Assembly: GCA_027306505.1 (NCBI GenBank)
Contig: DAHUZP010000083.1
Coordinates: forward strand, 1 to 64,000
DNA length: 64,000 bases
Source: Thermoplasmata archaeon
Lineage (GTDB): Archaea > Thermoplasmatota > Thermoplasmata > Lutacidiplasmatales > UBA184
Direction: 5' to 3'
Part shown: positions 38,004 through 54,350 of the stretch, in pieces
How positions within the stretch are numbered: the stretch's first letter is position 1
How the letters are laid out: each line of letters starts with the position of its first letter
Notes under the pieces: generated by a model
Database searches by the model: none
The model's input: the letters and a program-made list of their open reading frames with translations, nothing else
Told to the model about the DNA's origin: nothing
Made by a program: the position numbers and the translations under genes

Positions 38004-39197
38004 CTACAGGAGGTTCTCGAACTCCTTCGTGACCTCGGGATACTTGTCCTTGACCGCCTTGAGGATGTTGAGGACGGAGAGCTTCTCGAGCTTGACGCCT
38101 GCGAGCGCGTCGATGATCTTGTCGAAGATCTCGTCGGGCAGGGAGACCAGCTTCTCCTTCGCGACCCAGTTGCGCAGCAGCTTCTCCTCGAGCACGGCGC
38201 GCCAGCCCTGGTCGTACTTCATGAGGAACGTCCTCGAGACGTCGCCCGTCTGCGCCGCCTCGGCCGCGACCTTCCCCGCGATCTTCCCGGCGATGCACCC
38301 GTTCGCGATGCCTCCACCGGTGAGCGGGTCGATCATCCGGGCCGCGTCCCCCACGAGCAGGAGGCCGTCCGTGACCGACTGCTTGATCGGAGGGGAGATG
38401 GAGACCCCGCCACCGACCATGTCGATCTTCTTCCCCTTGGAGTAGCCGGGGTGGTGCTCGATCCAGCGGTCGAGGTAGTCCTTGGTCTCGGCCGCGTTCT
38501 TGATCTGGGAGACCTGGACACCGATGCCTACGTTGGCGAGCCCGTCGCCCTTGGGGAACACCCAGACGTAGCCGCCCGGGGCGACCTTGCCCAGGTAGAA
38601 GTCACAGTAGCGGACGTCGGAGTCCACGTTGGTCATCCGGTACTGCAGGCAGGAGTCCATGTCGCGGAGCTGGAGGTTCGTGGGGAGCCCCGCCCATCGT
38701 CCCACCTGGCTCTCGAAGCCGTCCGCCCCGACCGTGATCTTCGCGTGGATCTCGAAGGGCTGGCCGAAGTGGGTCGCCTTGACGCCGACGATCGCCCCGT
38801 TCTTCCGGAGCAGGGCCTTCGCGTGGGTCTTGAGATGGATGGTGGTGTTCGCGTTCGCGGCGTCGATGGCGAGCTGCTTGTCGAACGCATCGCGCTCGAC
38901 GACGTAGCCCACCTCGTTGCCCGCGTGCTTCTCGTTGATCTCCATCACCTTCTCGGAGGGGGAGTAGATGCGGGCCCCCTCCACCTCGAGGTTGATCCAG
39001 CGGTTCGACGGGGTGATGCCCACGTCGCTCAGCCAGGCCTTCGACATCCCCTCGCCGCACCGGACGGGGGAGCCGATCTCCTGGCGCTTCTCGATCATGA
39101 TGACGCTCGCGCCGCTCTTGGCGGCCCACTTGGCGGTCATGCTGCCGGCGGGACCGGCTCCCACGACCAGTACATCGCAACGAAGGTCCGCGACCAT
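38004..39197 (-). CDS. Geranylgeranyl reductase family (digeranylgeranylglycerophospholipid reductase)
   Basis: CDVLVVGAGPAGSMTAKWAAKSGASVIMIEKRQEIGSPVRCGEGMSKAWL...GDAARMIDPLTGGGIANGCIAGKIA. Confidence 0.93.
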   Translation of the reverse strand: MVADLRCDVLVVGAGPAGSMTAKWAAKSGASVIMIEKRQEIGSPVRCGEGMSKAWLSDVGITPSNRWINLEVEGARIYSPSEKVMEINEKHAGNEVGYVVERDAFDKQLAIDAANANTTIHLKTHAKALLRKNGAIVGVKATHFGQPFEIHAKITVGADGFESQVGRWAGLPTNLQLRDMDSCLQYRMTNVDSDVRYCDFYLGKVAPGGYVWVFPKGDGLANVGIGVQVSQIKNAAETKDYLDRWIEHHPGYSKGKKIDMVGGGVSISPPIKQSVTDGLLLVGDAARMIDPLTGGGIANGCIAGKIAGKVAAEAAQTGDVSRTFLMKYDQGWRAVLEEKLLRNWVAKEKLVSLPDEIFDKIIDALAGVKLEKLSVLNILKAVKDKYPEVTKEFENLL

Positions 39198-43636: not shown

Positions 43637-45703
43637 GTGACCGCCCCCGCGTCGGAACCCAGGACGTCTCCCCCGGCGTTCTCCCCCGCACCCTCGGGAA
43701 GCCCGACCCCCCGTACAGGTGGCGGCCGGGAAGCCGTGCCCTCGCGGGAAGGCGGGGCTTCCGCTGGGGGAAGGACGACACCCAGCTCGAAGGCGACGGA
43801 CCCAGGGCCCACGGGCCGGTCCGGGGGAGGCGGGCACGCTTCCGCCGCATCTCACGACCCGCAAACCCCCTTCTCCGGTGCCCGCTGGTGGGCCTGGGGG
43901 AACATCTCCCGACGTTATCCCCCTGCTCGCGCGGAGCAGGTCAAGGAGTTCCTTCGGCACCAGTTGGGGCTCCCCCCGATGGGCGCCGGAGGTCCGGCGG
44001 TGGACCTCGAGACCCTGCACATCCCCCCGAGCCGGCTCACGAGCGCCGAGGTGCAGGAGATCCGGGCGCTGCTCCCCACCGGCCACGCGAGCGATCAGCG
44101 GGAGGAGAGGCTCCTACACTCCTTCGGACGGTCCTATATCGACGTGGTGACCGCGCGGCGGGGTCACCTGCGTACCGTCACGGACGTCGTCGCGCACCCC
44201 GCGTCGGTCCAGGAGGTCGAGGACCTCGTCCACTACGCCCACACCCACGACCTCGCGATCGTGCCCTGGGGCGGCGGGACCAGCGTGGTGGGAGGCGTGG
44301 ACCCTGAGGCGGGCGGCCATCGCGGGGTCCTCACCCTGTCGTTGCAGCGGCTGATGGACCCGATGGGGCTCGACACGCTGAGCCGCCTCGCCCGCTTCCA
44401 GTGCGGCATCCACGGGCCGGACCTCGAGAAGTACCTCAACGACCGGGGGTACACCCTGGGACACTTCCCGCAGTCCTTCGAGTTCTCCACCCTCGGCGGG
44501 TGGCTCGCGACGCGCTCCAGCGGGCAAGCCTCCTCCCGGTACGGGGAGGTCAGCGACCGCCTCCACGGCGCGACCGTCGTGACCCCGGTGGGGACGCTCC
44601 GTTGGGAGCGCGGCGTCGCCGAGTCCTCCGGCCCGGACCCCAGTGCGCTCCTCCCCGGCTCCGAAGGCACCCTGGGGATCTTCGTCGAGGCGACGCTCGC
44701 GGTGGAGCCCCTGCCGGTCCGCACCTCCTACCGGGCGGCGATCTTCCCGGACTGGGCGAGCGGCGTCGCCGCCTGCCGGGAGCTCTCCCAGGAAGGCCCC
44801 GCGCCGGCCGTGCTCCGCCTCTCCGACCCGACGGAGACCATGCTCACCTTCGAGGGAAGGCCCCCCGCCGAGACCGCGGGCGAGAAGATGCGCCAGCGGC
44901 TCGAACGGGAGTACATCGGGCTCCACAAGCTCGAGGAGGGGTCGATGTGCCTCGCGGTCATCGGCTACGAAGGGACCGAGCGGGAGGTCCGCCACGGGGA
45001 GGAACGACGCAAGGAGGTGCTCAAGGCCGGTGGGGGGGTCGATGTCGGCTCTCGGGCCGGGAGCACCTGGCAGGAGGAGCGCTTCCTGCTCCCCTACCTC
45101 CGGGACGACCTGCTGGAGGACGGCTGGCTCGTCGAGACGCTGGAGACCGGGGCCGCCTGGAGCGAGGTGGAGGGGCTCACCTCCCAGGTGACGGAGGCGC
45201 TCCAGCAGGCCGCACGACGTAGCAAGTTCCCCCTCCTCAGCGCGGCGCACCTCTCCCACACCTCCCGGACCGGATCGGGGATCTACTTCACCATCATGGC
45301 CCCGCAGAACCCGCACGACCCGGTCGGGCAGTGGCTCGTCCTGAAGGAGGCGGCCACCGAGACCCTGCTCCACGCCGGAGGGGTGCTAAGCCACCACCAC
45401 GGAGTAGGGAAGATGCACCGACCCTGGGTCGGAAGCTATCGCCAGCGGATGGGGCGCCTGTCGCTGGACGCGGCGAAGCAGGCCTTCGATCCTCTGGGGG
45501 TCCTGAACCCGGGGAAGACCCTCGCGGAACCCTCGACCGAACCCGGCGCGACCGCCCCCGCACGGGCGGCCGCGACCGGAGCGAAGGCCCCCTCCACGCC
45601 CCCACGGCCCAACCCCTCCGCTCCCGCGGGCGGGGTCCCTTCCAAGCCCCGTGCCCCTGGCGAGGAGCCTTCGACGGAGGATGCCGCCACCACCCACCGC
45701 TGA
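43637..45703 (+). CDS. FAD-linked oxidase, alkyl-dihydroxyacetonephosphate synthase (AGPS)-like
   Basis: WWAWGNISRRYPP, RHLRTVTDVVAHP-type FAD-binding entry, IVPWGGGTSVVGGVD, GPDLEKYLNDRGYTLGHFPQSFEFSTLGGWLATRSSGQASSRYGEVSDRLHGATVVTPVG, LSHHHGVGKMHRPW; TATA-like acttaac about 30 nt before GTG. Confidence 0.88.
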   Translation: MTAPASEPRTSPPAFSPAPSGSPTPRTGGGREAVPSREGGASAGGRTTPSSKATDPGPTGRSGGGGHASAASHDPQTPFSGARWWAWGNISRRYPPARAEQVKEFLRHQLGLPPMGAGGPAVDLETLHIPPSRLTSAEVQEIRALLPTGHASDQREERLLHSFGRSYIDVVTARRGHLRTVTDVVAHPASVQEVEDLVHYAHTHDLAIVPWGGGTSVVGGVDPEAGGHRGVLTLSLQRLMDPMGLDTLSRLARFQCGIHGPDLEKYLNDRGYTLGHFPQSFEFSTLGGWLATRSSGQASSRYGEVSDRLHGATVVTPVGTLRWERGVAESSGPDPSALLPGSEGTLGIFVEATLAVEPLPVRTSYRAAIFPDWASGVAACRELSQEGPAPAVLRLSDPTETMLTFEGRPPAETAGEKMRQRLEREYIGLHKLEEGSMCLAVIGYEGTEREVRHGEERRKEVLKAGGGVDVGSRAGSTWQEERFLLPYLRDDLLEDGWLVETLETGAAWSEVEGLTSQVTEALQQAARRSKFPLLSAAHLSHTSRTGSGIYFTIMAPQNPHDPVGQWLVLKEAATETLLHAGGVLSHHHGVGKMHRPWVGSYRQRMGRLSLDAAKQAFDPLGVLNPGKTLAEPSTEPGATAPARAAATGAKAPSTPPRPNPSAPAGGVPSKPRAPGEEPSTEDAATTHR

Positions 45704-47306
45704 TCCTGGCGGGAGCCCCCCGCTCGGGAACGACCGGGAGCGCCGGTGGTCGGAGCTCGGGAGCGGAGAGTTCGACCTGCTCGTGGTGGGCGGGGGCATC
45801 ACGGGGGCCGGGATCGCCCAGGTCGCGACGGCCCGTGGCTACCGGGTCGCGCTCGTGGAGAGAGAGGACTTCGGAGGAGGGACCTCAGGGGCGACCTCCA
45901 AGATGCTGCACGGGGGGCTGCGCTACCTGCAGCAGCGCAAGGTCGGGCTCGTCCGCGAGGCGCTGCACGAGCGCGGTCGGCTCGTTCGGATGCTCGGCAC
46001 CCAACGGGTCCAGAGCACGCCCTTCCTCCTGCCGTTGGACGGCTCGTTCGGCCACCGGCTCGGCCTCCGGTTCGGGACCTGGCTCTACCAGAGGCTCTCC
46101 GGCGACCTCGCCCTGGGACCGAGGAAGGTCCTCTCCCGCGCCGAGGTGACCCAACAGGTCCCCTTCCTCTCGATGGAGGGGGTCCGGGGCGGGGTCCTCT
46201 ACTTGGAGGGGGTCGTCGACGATGTTCTCCTCACCCTCACCCGTGTCGGGCAGGCCGCGCACGGGGGGGCCCTCGTGCTGAACCACGTGGAAGCGATCGC
46301 TCCCCTTCTGGACGGCTCCGGTCACCTCCAGGGCGTGCGCGTCCGCGACCGGAGGAGCGGCCGGGAGGAGGACGTCCGTGCCCGCAAGGTGATCAACGCG
46401 GCGGGGGTCTGGTCCTCCGGGTGGGCGGGCGTCGACCGTACCCCGAAGCTCCGACCGTCGAAGGGGGTCCACCTGGTCTTCCGCAGGAAGCGCCTGCCTC
46501 TCGAGGTCGCGGTCGTCCTTTCGGCCCCGGAGGGGCGATGGGTCTTCGCCCTCCCCTACGGCCCGCTCGCCATCGTCGGGACGACGGACACCGACTATCC
46601 GGGTGACCCCTCCCGTATCCGGGCCGAGCCGGAGGACCTAAGCTACCTCATCGAGGTCGCTCGCCGGTGCTTCCCTTCCCTTGACCTTTCGCTCAAGGAT
46701 GTGGTGGACGTGTATGCGGGGCTGCGGCCGCTCCTGGACGGCGGTGCCGCGAGGACCAACGACCTCTCCCGGGAGGACGTGGTACATGAGGGCCCTGGCG
46801 GGCTCCTCACGGTCGCGGGAGGGAAGCTGACCACCCATCGGGCGATGGCGGACAGGGCCCTCGACGTGGGCGGCCTCTCCCCCCGGGGAACCTCCCACCC
46901 TGCTCCCTCTCCAGCGGGAGCGATCTCGGAGGAGGGGGAGCCCTGGGGATCGTGGGAGTTCCCTCCGCTCTGGCGGGGGACGGCCTGCCCGGGGGCGGAC
47001 CTCGTCGCCCGGGCGCTCGCGCAGGAGAGCGCGGCGAGGGCCTCGCTCCTAAGGCCGTGGGTCGAGGCCGGGATCCGGGTCACCGGCGCGTCGAGCCTGG
47101 GCGACCTCATGGACCGACGGCTGCACACCCTCCAGCGTCTCGATCCGCACTTCGAAGAGGTCGTGGACGAGGTCGCCCGGGAGGCCCAACCCCTCCTGGG
47201 GTGGTCGGACGCCGTGCGGGAGCGGGAGCGAGAGGATTATCTCACCCGGGTCCGATTCGAGACGCAGGCGGTCCGCTCGGAACGGGGGGACCGGGACGCT
47301 CCATGA
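45681..47306 (+). CDS. FAD-dependent glycerol-3-phosphate dehydrogenase (GlpD/GlpA family)
   Basis: FDLLVVGGGITGAGIAQVATARGYRVALVEREDFGGGTSGATSKMLHGGLRYLQQ...INAAGVWSSGWA...VVDVYAGLRPLL; ATG 45681 overlaps AGPS end. Confidence 0.92.
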   Translation: MPPPPTADPGGSPPLGNDRERRWSELGSGEFDLLVVGGGITGAGIAQVATARGYRVALVEREDFGGGTSGATSKMLHGGLRYLQQRKVGLVREALHERGRLVRMLGTQRVQSTPFLLPLDGSFGHRLGLRFGTWLYQRLSGDLALGPRKVLSRAEVTQQVPFLSMEGVRGGVLYLEGVVDDVLLTLTRVGQAAHGGALVLNHVEAIAPLLDGSGHLQGVRVRDRRSGREEDVRARKVINAAGVWSSGWAGVDRTPKLRPSKGVHLVFRRKRLPLEVAVVLSAPEGRWVFALPYGPLAIVGTTDTDYPGDPSRIRAEPEDLSYLIEVARRCFPSLDLSLKDVVDVYAGLRPLLDGGAARTNDLSREDVVHEGPGGLLTVAGGKLTTHRAMADRALDVGGLSPRGTSHPAPSPAGAISEEGEPWGSWEFPPLWRGTACPGADLVARALAQESAARASLLRPWVEAGIRVTGASSLGDLMDRRLHTLQRLDPHFEEVVDEVAREAQPLLGWSDAVREREREDYLTRVRFETQAVRSERGDRDAP

Positions 47307-48421
47307 CCTCATCCACTCCATCCACCCTTTCTCCCCCTTCCCCTCCATCCATCTCTCCCGTTCCCTCGAGCCCGACCCCCGCCTCCTCGGATCCGGGGAT
47401 GGCCTCGCTCTCTTCCAGGAGCCCGAGCGTCGCGGGAGCGCTGGCCGCCCCGATCTCCCCTCCCTCGGGGCAGGGGGAGGCGCGACCCACCCCTCAGCGG
47501 ATCTACGTCATCCTCAACCCGCGAGCGGCGGGAGGGAGGGCAGAGGAGCGCTGGCAGCAGCTCGAGCTGCCGCTCAGGACCCGGTTCCCGTTCCTCACCG
47601 TGCTCAAGACGTCGCGGCCCCAGGAGGAGGCCTCGCTGGGACAGCGGGCGGTCCGCGAGGGGGCGGACCTCGTGATCGCGGCCGGCGGGGACGGCACCTT
47701 CTCGGGCGTGGTCGATGGCGTCCTCTCCGAGCCCCCCATGACGCACGCGTCGCCCCCGGCCCTCGCCGTGCTCCCGGTGGGGAGCGGGAGCGACTTCGCC
47801 CGCGGGCTCGGGCTGCCCCGCGACCCCGCCGAGGTGATCCCTCGCATCGCCGCAGGCGCTCCCCGCAAGCTCGACGTGGGGAGGCTCACGTTCTACACGG
47901 AGACCCCGCCCCGGCTCCGCTACTTCGTGAACCAATCCTACCTGGGCTTCGGTGCGAAGGTGGTCCGGCGCGTCAACCGGGGAAGAGGGGCGGGCCACGA
48001 AGGTGCCTACACCCGGGCGGTCTTCCCGGAGCTCCTGCATCACCGACCGCTGCCGGTCACCCTTGAGGGCGACGGTGCCCCATCGGGGACCTTCGGGCTC
48101 AGCAACCTCGTGGTCGCGATCGGCCGCTACTCCGGAGGGGGGATGCTCTCCTCGCCTCGGTCGGACCCTTCGGACGGCGCCTTCGACATGATCGCCGTGG
48201 GGCCCGTCTCCCGTCTCCGCCTCTTGCTGAACCTCTCGAAGTTCCGAAAGGGCCGTCACCTTGAGCTGAAGACGGTCACCGTCTGGAAGGGCCCCACCCT
48301 CCAAGTGAGCCCCCAGGGGGGTGGAGCGGACGACCGCCTGGTCGAGGCCGACGGTGACATCGTGGGGAGCCTGCCGGTGGTCTACGACATCCTGCCGGGA
48401 GCGCTCAACTTCTGGAGCTGA
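47303..48421 (+). CDS. Diacylglycerol/lipid kinase family protein (DAGK catalytic fold)
   Basis: RIYVILNPRAAGGRAEERW...ADLVIAAGGDGTFSGVVDGVL...LAVLPVGSGSDFARGLGLPRDPAEVI; ATGA overlap with GlpD-like stop. Confidence 0.9.
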   Translation: MTSSTPSTLSPPSPPSISPVPSSPTPASSDPGMASLSSRSPSVAGALAAPISPPSGQGEARPTPQRIYVILNPRAAGGRAEERWQQLELPLRTRFPFLTVLKTSRPQEEASLGQRAVREGADLVIAAGGDGTFSGVVDGVLSEPPMTHASPPALAVLPVGSGSDFARGLGLPRDPAEVIPRIAAGAPRKLDVGRLTFYTETPPRLRYFVNQSYLGFGAKVVRRVNRGRGAGHEGAYTRAVFPELLHHRPLPVTLEGDGAPSGTFGLSNLVVAIGRYSGGGMLSSPRSDPSDGAFDMIAVGPVSRLRLLLNLSKFRKGRHLELKTVTVWKGPTLQVSPQGGGADDRLVEADGDIVGSLPVVYDILPGALNFWS

Positions 48422-52559: not shown

Positions 52560-53744
52560 TCAGAGGTAGCGGTCGATGAGGTTGTCCGTCGTGTCGAAGA
52601 CGATCTTCTGGCCGCTGAACGCTTTCTTGTTCATGTAGAACGAGGCCTTCGCCGAGTTCACGGCGGCCACCGGGAACTGCTCGGAGAGGGGGGCCACCAC
52701 CATGCAGGTGTCCTGGATGACCTTCGCTCCCGCCTGACGGAGGACCTCCACCGCCGCGGCGGTCTCTTCGATGACCTTGCGGTTGGAGCATACCCAGAGC
52801 TCGGTCCCAGGCTTGAGCTTGCGGCCCTTGCGCTTGACCGACTGGGCTATCTGGATGAGCTCCCCTTTGGTGCAGTGCGGGCAGCCGATCGCGACGAGCT
52901 GCGGGTCCTCGTCGCAGCCCAGGCAGCGCTGGAACTCCCCCAACGCCGGGGCGTCGACCGAGATCCGCTCCAAGCCCCGGACGTCCTGGGCGGAAGCTTC
53001 CGGCGTCACGCCCTCCACGTGCATCATCGGGACGGCCCCCCAGGCGGAGAGGGAGCTTCCGAGCTCTTTGAGCCCGTCCAGGTCCGGTCGGATCCCGCGG
53101 AAGTAGGGGATCCTCTGACCGAGGATCTTCCCGAGATAGGCCCCGAGGACCGTGTAGCGCATCGGCCCCTTCGATACGTCCACGTCGACCAGGACCTGGG
53201 CCTTCCGACCCTCCGGGCGGTGGAGGCCATGGTCCGGGGTCTTGCCGATCACCGCGCTCGCGAGCGCGCTGGGGGCCCCTTCCCGGTTGGAGTAGGCGCC
53301 AAGGACGCTGTTCGCGTAGATGACCGCGGAGCTCTCCGCCCAGGCGAGGTGCGCGCCCGAGGGTGGGGCGAAGTCGGTGGTGTAGGGGGTGCAGGTGAAG
53401 GTGGGGATCGCTCCCATCGACATCAGCGCCTTCACGATCCGGTCCTGCTTCGCCCGGAAGTCCGTGTTCGTGTGGACGAGCCCGGGCCCGCCCACGTCGT
53501 ACCCGGCCGGGTTGATGGTCGTGGGGACGTGGAACCTGACCTCCTCCGCCATCTCCTCCAAGAACTCCGTCCCGGCGACGCCCATGGTCTTGTAGGAGAT
53601 CCCGGAGAGCTGGACGGAATAGATCGGTAGGAGCCGTCGCGCCCCGGACATCTCGCCGAGCGTCACGAGGATCCTCATGCATTCCTGCACGCGGGGGCCC
53701 TTCTCCCCCTTCAGCAGGGCTTCCTCCTCGCGGGTCAGCTCCAT
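52560..53744 (-). CDS. Aconitase X large subunit / phosphomevalonate dehydratase large subunit-like
   Basis: MELTREEEALLKGEKGPRVQECMRILVTLGEM...FHVPTTINPAGYDVGGPGLVHTNTDFRAKQDRIVKAL...PTFTCTPYTTDFAPPSGAHLAWAESSAVIYANSVLGAYSNREGAPSALASAVIGKTPDHGLH. Confidence 0.92.
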   Translation of the reverse strand: MELTREEEALLKGEKGPRVQECMRILVTLGEMSGARRLLPIYSVQLSGISYKTMGVAGTEFLEEMAEEVRFHVPTTINPAGYDVGGPGLVHTNTDFRAKQDRIVKALMSMGAIPTFTCTPYTTDFAPPSGAHLAWAESSAVIYANSVLGAYSNREGAPSALASAVIGKTPDHGLHRPEGRKAQVLVDVDVSKGPMRYTVLGAYLGKILGQRIPYFRGIRPDLDGLKELGSSLSAWGAVPMMHVEGVTPEASAQDVRGLERISVDAPALGEFQRCLGCDEDPQLVAIGCPHCTKGELIQIAQSVKRKGRKLKPGTELWVCSNRKVIEETAAAVEVLRQAGAKVIQDTCMVVAPLSEQFPVAAVNSAKASFYMNKKAFSGQKIVFDTTDNLIDRYL

Positions 53745-53888
53745 GGAGGGATTGGAACGCAGGGGCTCGCTAAAAAGGGGGCCCTGGCGCCACTCCAGCC
53801 CCGAGGGGCACCGTCCCCTCCTCGCATCGGCCCCGGTGCGTCGGCCGGGGGACCTTATGGGGAGGAGCGCTCCCCCCCGGGGACCTCC

Positions 53889-54350
53889 ATGACGATCGAA
53901 GAGCGCCTCCGCGCCCAGGGGCTCGAGCTGCCCCCCCCGCCGACCCCCAAGGGGGCCTACGTCCCCGTCGTGCTCCATGGGGGGACCGCCTGGGTCTCGG
54001 GCATGCTCCCGCTGCGCCGCGGTGTGCTCCTCGCAAAGGGGCTGGTGGGCTCCGAGGTCAGCGTGGAGCAGGCGCGGGAAGCCGCCCGTGAGGCGGGCCT
54101 CCATGCGCTCTCCGCCCTTCGCGCCACCCTCGGTTCCCTGGACCGGATCGAGCGCGTGCTTCGCGTCGCGGTCTACGTCGCGAGCGCTCCGGGCTTCACT
54201 TCCCAGCCGGACGTCGCGAACGGGGTGTCAGAGCTCCTGATCGAGCTCCTGGGCGATCCCGGCCGTCACGCCAGGGTCGCGCTGGGGGCGGCCCGCTTGC
54301 CGATGGACGCCCCGGTCGAGGTCGAGATGGCCGTCGCGGTGCGGCCGTAG
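53889..54350 (+). CDS. RidA (YjgF/UK114) family protein
   Basis: AWVSGMLPLRRGVLLAKGLVGSEVSVEQAREAAREAGLHALSALRATLGSLDRIERVLRVAVYVAS. Confidence 0.9.
   Translation: MTIEERLRAQGLELPPPPTPKGAYVPVVLHGGTAWVSGMLPLRRGVLLAKGLVGSEVSVEQAREAAREAGLHALSALRATLGSLDRIERVLRVAVYVASAPGFTSQPDVANGVSELLIELLGDPGRHARVALGAARLPMDAPVEVEMAVAVRP

Follow-up and report, generated by a model that had tools for sequence, protein, structure and literature searches.

What is a homologue of the ether-lipid enzyme AGPS doing in an archaeon, in an operon with a glycerol-3-phosphate (G3P) dehydrogenase and a lipid kinase? The question is raised by a stretch of 64 000 nucleotides from a Thermoplasmata archaeon (contig DAHUZP010000083.1 of assembly GCA_027306505.1; hereafter the window), in which three open reading frames (ORFs) with overlapping junctions occupy positions 43637-48421 of the + strand in the order AGPS-like, GlpD-like, lipid kinase. 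On the basis of sequence comparisons, this trio is a candidate conserved lipid module for the breakdown of 1-O-alkyl (ether) glycerolipids, a reading to which we assign a probability of roughly one half. It is favoured because the three genes are linked and sometimes fused, because they keep company with SCP2, an iron-containing alcohol dehydrogenase (FeADH) and an aldehyde dehydrogenase (ALDH), because the context of AGPS synthases is missing, because the AGPS family is split at residue Asp303, because the trio decays jointly, and because its counterparts in BCG change together. The genes are as follows.

43637..45703, + strand: AGPS-family flavin adenine dinucleotide (FAD) protein, with homology from about residue 83 (nucleotide 43883) to residue 628
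45681..47306, + strand: homologue of GlpD/GlpO-type FAD-dependent G3P dehydrogenase, from its DAO domain, PDB matches and junction
47303..48421, + strand: YegS/DgkB/BmrU-type lipid kinase, from PF00781, PF19279, the PDB match to DgkB, the GGDGT motif and the ATGA junction

The overlapping arrangement described in an earlier, sequence-only reading of the window is confirmed. The ATG of the GlpD-like gene at 45681 comes just after a GGAGG and overlaps the AGPS frame, which ends at 45703, by 23 bases; the TGA of the same gene (47304-47306) and the kinase ATG at 47303 form an ATGA junction. The GC content of the third codon position is high in all three frames (0.87-0.89), as expected. The N-terminal 80 or so residues of the AGPS frame are of low complexity and match nothing, so that its true start is uncertain.

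The first protein belongs to the AGPS family, because its best matches in sequence and in fold are AGPS enzymes and the catalytic residues are kept. The Pfam domains FAD_binding_4 (PF01565, 6.9e-31) and FAD-oxidase_C (PF02913, 7e-31) are both above cut-off. Sequence matches in the PDB are full-length for two AGPS enzymes, from Dictyostelium (8.5e-101) and guinea pig (2.4e-71), whereas other VAO-family enzymes give partial matches only, at best 1.6e-21. An AlphaFold2 model built from 37 aligned relatives (pLDDT 90.6, pTM 0.90) was compared by Foldseek: the first 37 matches are all AGPS chains (1.5e-48), and D-lactate dehydrogenase comes later (2e-29). In guinea pig numbering, His300, Thr309, Arg419, Arg515, Tyr578 and His615-617 are conserved. 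Arg419, Tyr578 and His617 are important for AGPS catalysis, and structures of the Arg419His and Tyr578Phe mutants exist in the PDB. The positions discussed below, as aligned with guinea pig AGPS, are encoded at the following sites.

44471..44473, + strand: Gln codon at the position of Asp303 (GHFPQS in place of GHEPDS), from the alignment
44816..44818, + strand: Arg codon equivalent to Arg419, from the PDB match and alignment
45284..45286, + strand: Tyr codon equivalent to Tyr578, from the PDB match and alignment
45392..45400, + strand: His-His-His (HHH) equivalent to His615-617, from the PDB match and alignment

The sequence-only reading had left a comparison with other FAD_binding_4 oxidases to be made. 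This comparison places the protein with AGPS; an identity as GlcD or D-lactate dehydrogenase is ruled out by fold, tree and residues. The GlcD outgroup is split off with a support of 99, and the window protein has HHH where GlcD has a C-terminal GEH motif.

The two partner proteins were also named correctly from the letters alone, the second gene now being of the GlpD/GlpO type. The GlpD-like protein has a DAO domain (1e-47, above the Pfam cut-off) and its best PDB matches are G3P dehydrogenase/oxidase structures (3da1, 5.6e-70; 2rgh, 3.7e-66); it scores below the NCBIfam equivalog cut-off (246 bits against 360). The kinase carries DAGK_cat (PF00781, 2.8e-27) and YegS_C (PF19279, 9.7e-25), both above cut-off, and a GGDGT motif. 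Its best PDB matches are DgkB/BmrU (DgkB, 1.4e-12), and it scores below the cut-off of the TIGR00147 subfamily (96.3 bits against 118.65).

Recurrence in many distant genomes and fusion of its genes mark the trio as a real functional module, with an association far beyond chance. Among 390 Thermoplasmatota genomes, 92 have an AGPS match at 1e-20, those weaker than about 1e-30 aligning only partially and being probably GlcD-like. All neighbour counts given here and below come from samples picked by similarity, with kinship ignored in most. Five other genomes of the same family carry AGPS-GlpD-kinase in the same order (L035, L038, L039, L040 and L053), as do more than ten from other Thermoplasmata families (L048, L054-L056, L059-L064 and L071); elsewhere one gene is nearby rather than adjacent. 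Of 80 loci in named genomes, almost all of them bacterial, 53 have the complete set of three genes. The order is AGPS-GlpD-kinase in Saprospiraceae and GlpD-kinase-AGPS in Parvibaculum and Rhodobiaceae, and in Mycobacterium, Streptomyces, Nocardia and Rhodococcus a divergent GlpD gene is followed by AGPS-kinase. The trio is thus found in Thermoplasmatota, Actinomycetota, Bacteroidota and Alphaproteobacteria, and the conservation in relatives that had been put forward for checking is established. Single ORFs fusing AGPS with GlpD (L151, 1104 amino acids) and GlpD with the kinase (L123, 864 amino acids) come from metagenome-assembled genomes (MAGs).

The loss of the trio is also informative. In L036 and L037, at the same syntenic spot, the GlpD and kinase genes are gone and the remaining AGPS is without Tyr578 and His617; this joint decay suggests that AGPS depends on both partners. 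The window's family has stand-alone AGPS paralogues (L036, 9539-11782; L037, 8095-9828; L041, 8876-10567; L042, 8436-10127) lacking Tyr578 and one or all residues of HHH. To judge from these residues, they are probably inactive as AGPS or have taken on a new role.

The company of the trio points to breakdown in the Thermoplasmatales-like families, a guessed label for the other Thermoplasmata families that have it. Locus L068 reads, in one direction, PF04185 phosphoesterase (phospholipase C- or phosphatase-like), kinase, SCP2, FeADH, ALDH, AGPS and GlpD, and locus L060 reads SCP2, FeADH, ALDH, AGPS, GlpD and kinase. In the window's own genome, an SCP2-FeADH-ALDH cluster lies on contig C3 (about 90.0-93.4 kb), away from the trio, and there are also PF04185 proteins, two FGGY (glycerol-kinase-family) kinases and six acyl-CoA dehydrogenases. 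An FeADH orthologue of at least 59% identity is present in the trio-bearing family genomes G101, G186, G290 and G040; in the family genomes listed without the trio, FeADH identity is at most 43%, except for G379 of the same genus (87%), a genome 89% complete with no AGPS match. Breakdown is likewise favoured by the FadR-type regulator of two Chloroflexota loci and by the linkage of AGPS to GlpA, Fe-S and GlpK genes in other classes, both described below.

A 2-hydroxyacid dehydrogenase and a thiamine pyrophosphate (TPP) enzyme resembling benzoylformate decarboxylase are encoded beside or near SCP2-FeADH-ALDH at several loci (L184, 2055-4522; L183; L050; L060; L064). A role in chain shortening of branched acids is possible; alpha-oxidation of phytanic acid by this enzyme pair was considered and left as speculation, the TPP enzyme being of the benzoylformate-decarboxylase type.

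The proposed route would begin with a phospholipase or phosphatase freeing an alkylglycerol, which the kinase would phosphorylate to 1-alkyl-glycerol-3-phosphate. The GlpD-like enzyme would then oxidize the free sn-2 hydroxyl to a ketone, giving 1-alkyl-dihydroxyacetone phosphate (1-alkyl-DHAP) and passing electrons to quinone. The AGPS-like enzyme, running in reverse, would form the adduct between flavin N5 and DHAP and expel the fatty alcohol, after which water (or a fatty acid) would free DHAP (or acyl-DHAP). SCP2, FeADH and ALDH would carry the fatty alcohol and oxidize it to the fatty acid. In such a scheme the kinase and the dehydrogenase must act before AGPS, since the chemistry of AGPS requires a ketone at C2. 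The N5-adduct chemistry is credited to Nenci et al. 2012 in PMC7662398.

Several points weigh against this proposal. The individual reactions, their direction and their substrates are all inferred. The known direction of AGPS-type catalysis is synthesis, its reversal on alkyl-DHAP with water is put forward here, and a full set of AGPS catalytic residues would, by itself, be compatible with synthesis. Archaeal lipids carry ether links at both sn-2 and sn-3 on glycerol-1-phosphate (G1P), and archaeol has no free sn-2 hydroxyl, so the organism's own lipids are unlikely as direct substrates and a source of alkylglycerols has to be assumed. The PF04185 proteins may turn out to be acid phosphatases instead of phospholipases, and FeADH and ALDH belong to generic families. 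Finally, genome G355 (L040) has the trio, yet only a distant FeADH (37% identity).

A first alternative, rather unlikely in our view, is that the trio turns over acyl lipids: it would act on lyso-phosphatidic acid or acyl-DHAP, or exchange acyl and alkyl chains, in the salvage of exogenous diacyl lipids and without ether cleavage. Rv2252, the kinase of the mycobacterial trio, is described as a diacylglycerol kinase (PMC3229680). The normal AGPS reaction does release the acyl chain of acyl-DHAP, and a FadR-type regulator stands directly upstream of AGPS-GlpD in two Chloroflexota loci. However, ordinary lipases cleave esters, which would make an AGPS-type enzyme unnecessary, and the linked FeADH and ALDH indicate an alcohol product.

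Less probable again is biosynthesis, in which the trio would make alkyl-DHAP or alkyl-G3P ether lipids, GlpD supplying DHAP from G3P and the kinase making phosphatidate-like lipids. Synthesis is the only proven activity of the AGPS family, and the fold and catalytic residues of the window protein are complete. The genomic context is different. A GNPAT/PlsC-type acyltransferase (PF01553) was not found in the window's own genome, an 88% complete draft, and of 44 relatives with AGPS 43 lack it too, which leaves no visible source of acyl-DHAP. G1P dehydrogenase (G1PDH) is encoded in the same genome, where it scores above its curated cut-off, and in 42 of the 44 relatives. The organism thus has the usual archaeal lipid genes, G1PDH and geranylgeranylglyceryl phosphate synthase (GGGPS), and a G3P-based membrane resulting from a missing G1PDH is ruled out. 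The sequence-only reading had proposed a check of the genome for G1PDH and for acyl or alkyl donor enzymes, whose absence it would count against its idea; G1PDH is there, and the lack of the acyltransferase speaks against synthesis. Its suggestion that the trio makes ether lipids from G3P or DHAP is accordingly not upheld, while catabolism, which it listed as an option, is now favoured.

Residue 303 separates two kinds of AGPS. It is Asp only in eukaryotic AGPS and in AGPS linked to fatty-acyl reductase (FAR) or GNPAT, Gln in the window and the bacterial trio, Glu in the Thermoplasmatales-like families and Ser in a third group. Asp303 as a marker of the synthase branch is proposed in this analysis and is not an established family criterion. 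At Asp303 loci, a FAR-acyltransferase fusion adjoins AGPS in L190 and L192-L197, and an acyltransferase does so in L144 and L149; the domains of the fusion were verified in L214-L217. FAR-acyltransferase homologues occur only in Asp303 loci, and FAR is not beside the window AGPS, the rest of the genome not having been searched for it. GlpD or the kinase adjoins AGPS in none of nine Asp303 loci and in 67 of 78 loci with non-Asp303 bacterial AGPS (Fisher p = 3e-7, relatedness ignored). The tree joins L144 and L149 to Dictyostelium AGPS (support 95) and keeps them apart from the trio. Real synthase operons, with FAR and/or GNPAT and Asp303, form a separate branch and manage without a dedicated GlpD for DHAP; the neighbours at Asp303 loci agree with those described for the M. 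xanthus operon MXAN_1676-1674 (PMC9131029). A search of one further bacterial phylum covered 46 genomes. Two types coexist in single genomes (G405, G408, G435-G437); in G405, where both neighbourhoods were read, the Asp303 AGPS lies with FAR-acyltransferase and the Ser303 AGPS with the kinase, so the two are not interchangeable. At L218-L221, Ser303 AGPS is found with Fer4/CCG iron-sulphur (Fe-S) proteins and with GlpD-like and lipid-kinase genes, and genomes of the same phylum also carry the FAR-GNPAT-linked type.

Some homologues adjoin Fe-S (CCG/Fer4) proteins, and the AGPS-like protein might accordingly be thought a different redox enzyme, a dehydrogenase of hydroxy acids or glycerophosphate derivatives built on the AGPS scaffold and feeding electrons to its partners. 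This is improbable: the aligned trio members show little or no variation at Arg419, Tyr578 and HHH, a set that eight GlcD/LDH-like control proteins of the phylum lack, and the Fe-S genes accompany GlpA/GlpB-like partners, which they can serve. Plain G3P catabolism with an accidental AGPS paralogue might be read from the GlpK gene that neighbours AGPS/GlpA in other classes and from the two FGGY kinases, but it is hardly credible: the trio genes are linked and fused across many phyla, and the partners are lost jointly with catalytic residues. The operons in those other Thermoplasmatota classes (L052, L058, L065, L067, L069 and L072) have the form AGPS-FeS(CCG)-GlpA-FAD oxidoreductase-(DUF1667-like)-GlpK and look, from their gene content, like an anaerobic version of the module.

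The AGPS gene was likely acquired from bacteria. In the tree, the window AGPS branches among bacteria, nearest to the actinobacterial type. It is separate from two other archaeal groups, the clade of the other Thermoplasmata trio (support 100) and a group whose AGPS is linked to GlpA-FeS-GlpK (99). The GlpD forms of the window's family (f1) and of the Thermoplasmatales-like families are each one clade; as the tree does not settle their placement among bacteria, a single transfer of the operon is not shown.

The surroundings of the trio are chromosomal and archaeal. The sequence-only reading had noticed an archaeal lipid gene about 4 kb upstream, and this is correct, although it is on the other strand and outside the operon.

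38004..39197, - strand: geranylgeranyl reductase (GGR) of archaeal lipid synthesis (NF041160, 1.2e-146)

NF041160 is the model for digeranylgeranyl reductase of Thermoplasmatales. The GGR gene lies about 4.4 kb upstream of AGPS; between them are two ABC-transporter genes, a flavin reductase-like ORF and a TrxR-like gene. Contamination of the MAG by bacterial DNA is ruled out, because archaeal relatives (L035-L037) keep the same order GGR-TrxR-AGPS-asparaginase. An aconitase X gene (PF04412, 2.3e-127; 52560-54104, - strand) is also found near the lipid genes; this family is used in the archaeal mevalonate pathway.

If the breakdown route exists, it would be a new way of cleaving ether lipids. 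It is possible, at somewhat less than even odds, that O-alkyl ether cleavage independent of O2 and pterin, by a kinase, an alkyl-G3P dehydrogenase and a reverse AGPS-type enzyme, is widespread in archaea, actinobacteria including mycobacteria, and several other phyla, with Gln, Glu or Ser in place of Asp303 as its marker. A recent reconstruction of the last universal common ancestor counts AGPS among the lipid-synthesis enzymes (PMC11383801). Caution is due in reading archaeal AGPS homologues as ether-lipid synthases, because the archaeal members examined have neither an acyltransferase partner nor Asp303.

Among known systems, eukaryotic AGPS (EC 2.5.1.26; Dictyostelium 2uuu, guinea pig 4bby) shares with the window protein the fold, domain order, FAD site and the residues H300, T309, R419, R515, Y578 and H615-617. 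It differs in sequence (about 27-30% identity in structural alignment) and in having Asp303 where the window protein has Gln; moreover, the trio AGPS is linked to GlpD and lipid-kinase genes, and its loci contain neither GNPAT nor FAR. The myxobacterial operon and L214-L217 also have an AGPS-family enzyme in an operon, but the myxobacterial partners are a FAR-acyltransferase fusion and an epimerase, and the AGPS of L214-L217 has Asp303 and neither GlpD nor kinase. Alkylglycerol monooxygenase (AGMO) cleaves the O-alkyl ether of glycerolipids, the outcome proposed for the trio, but is a membrane monooxygenase of another kind, dependent on tetrahydrobiopterin. GlpD/GlpO and GlpABC share the DAO domain, and the best PDB matches of the window protein are G3P dehydrogenase/oxidase, but it is below the equivalog cut-offs and linked or fused to AGPS and a lipid kinase. 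Another parallel is the cluster glpD1 (Rv2249c)-Rv2250c-Rv2251-Rv2252 of M. tuberculosis and BCG, which comprises the same three families, but there GlpD is encoded on the other strand and a regulator gene intervenes; in L077-L086, GlpD is divergent from AGPS-kinase. A record titled as a Bifidobacterium breve MAG (L113) has a locus resembling the nocardiform/mycobacterial AGPS cluster and may be mislabelled or contaminated. The cited literature on the mycobacterial cluster states no role for Rv2251, and the three-enzyme route, if true, would offer a function for the cluster. A published BCG transcriptome table gives concerted changes of +2.1 to +2.3 for the counterparts of Rv2249c, Rv2250c, Rv2251 and Rv2252 (PMC4564863).

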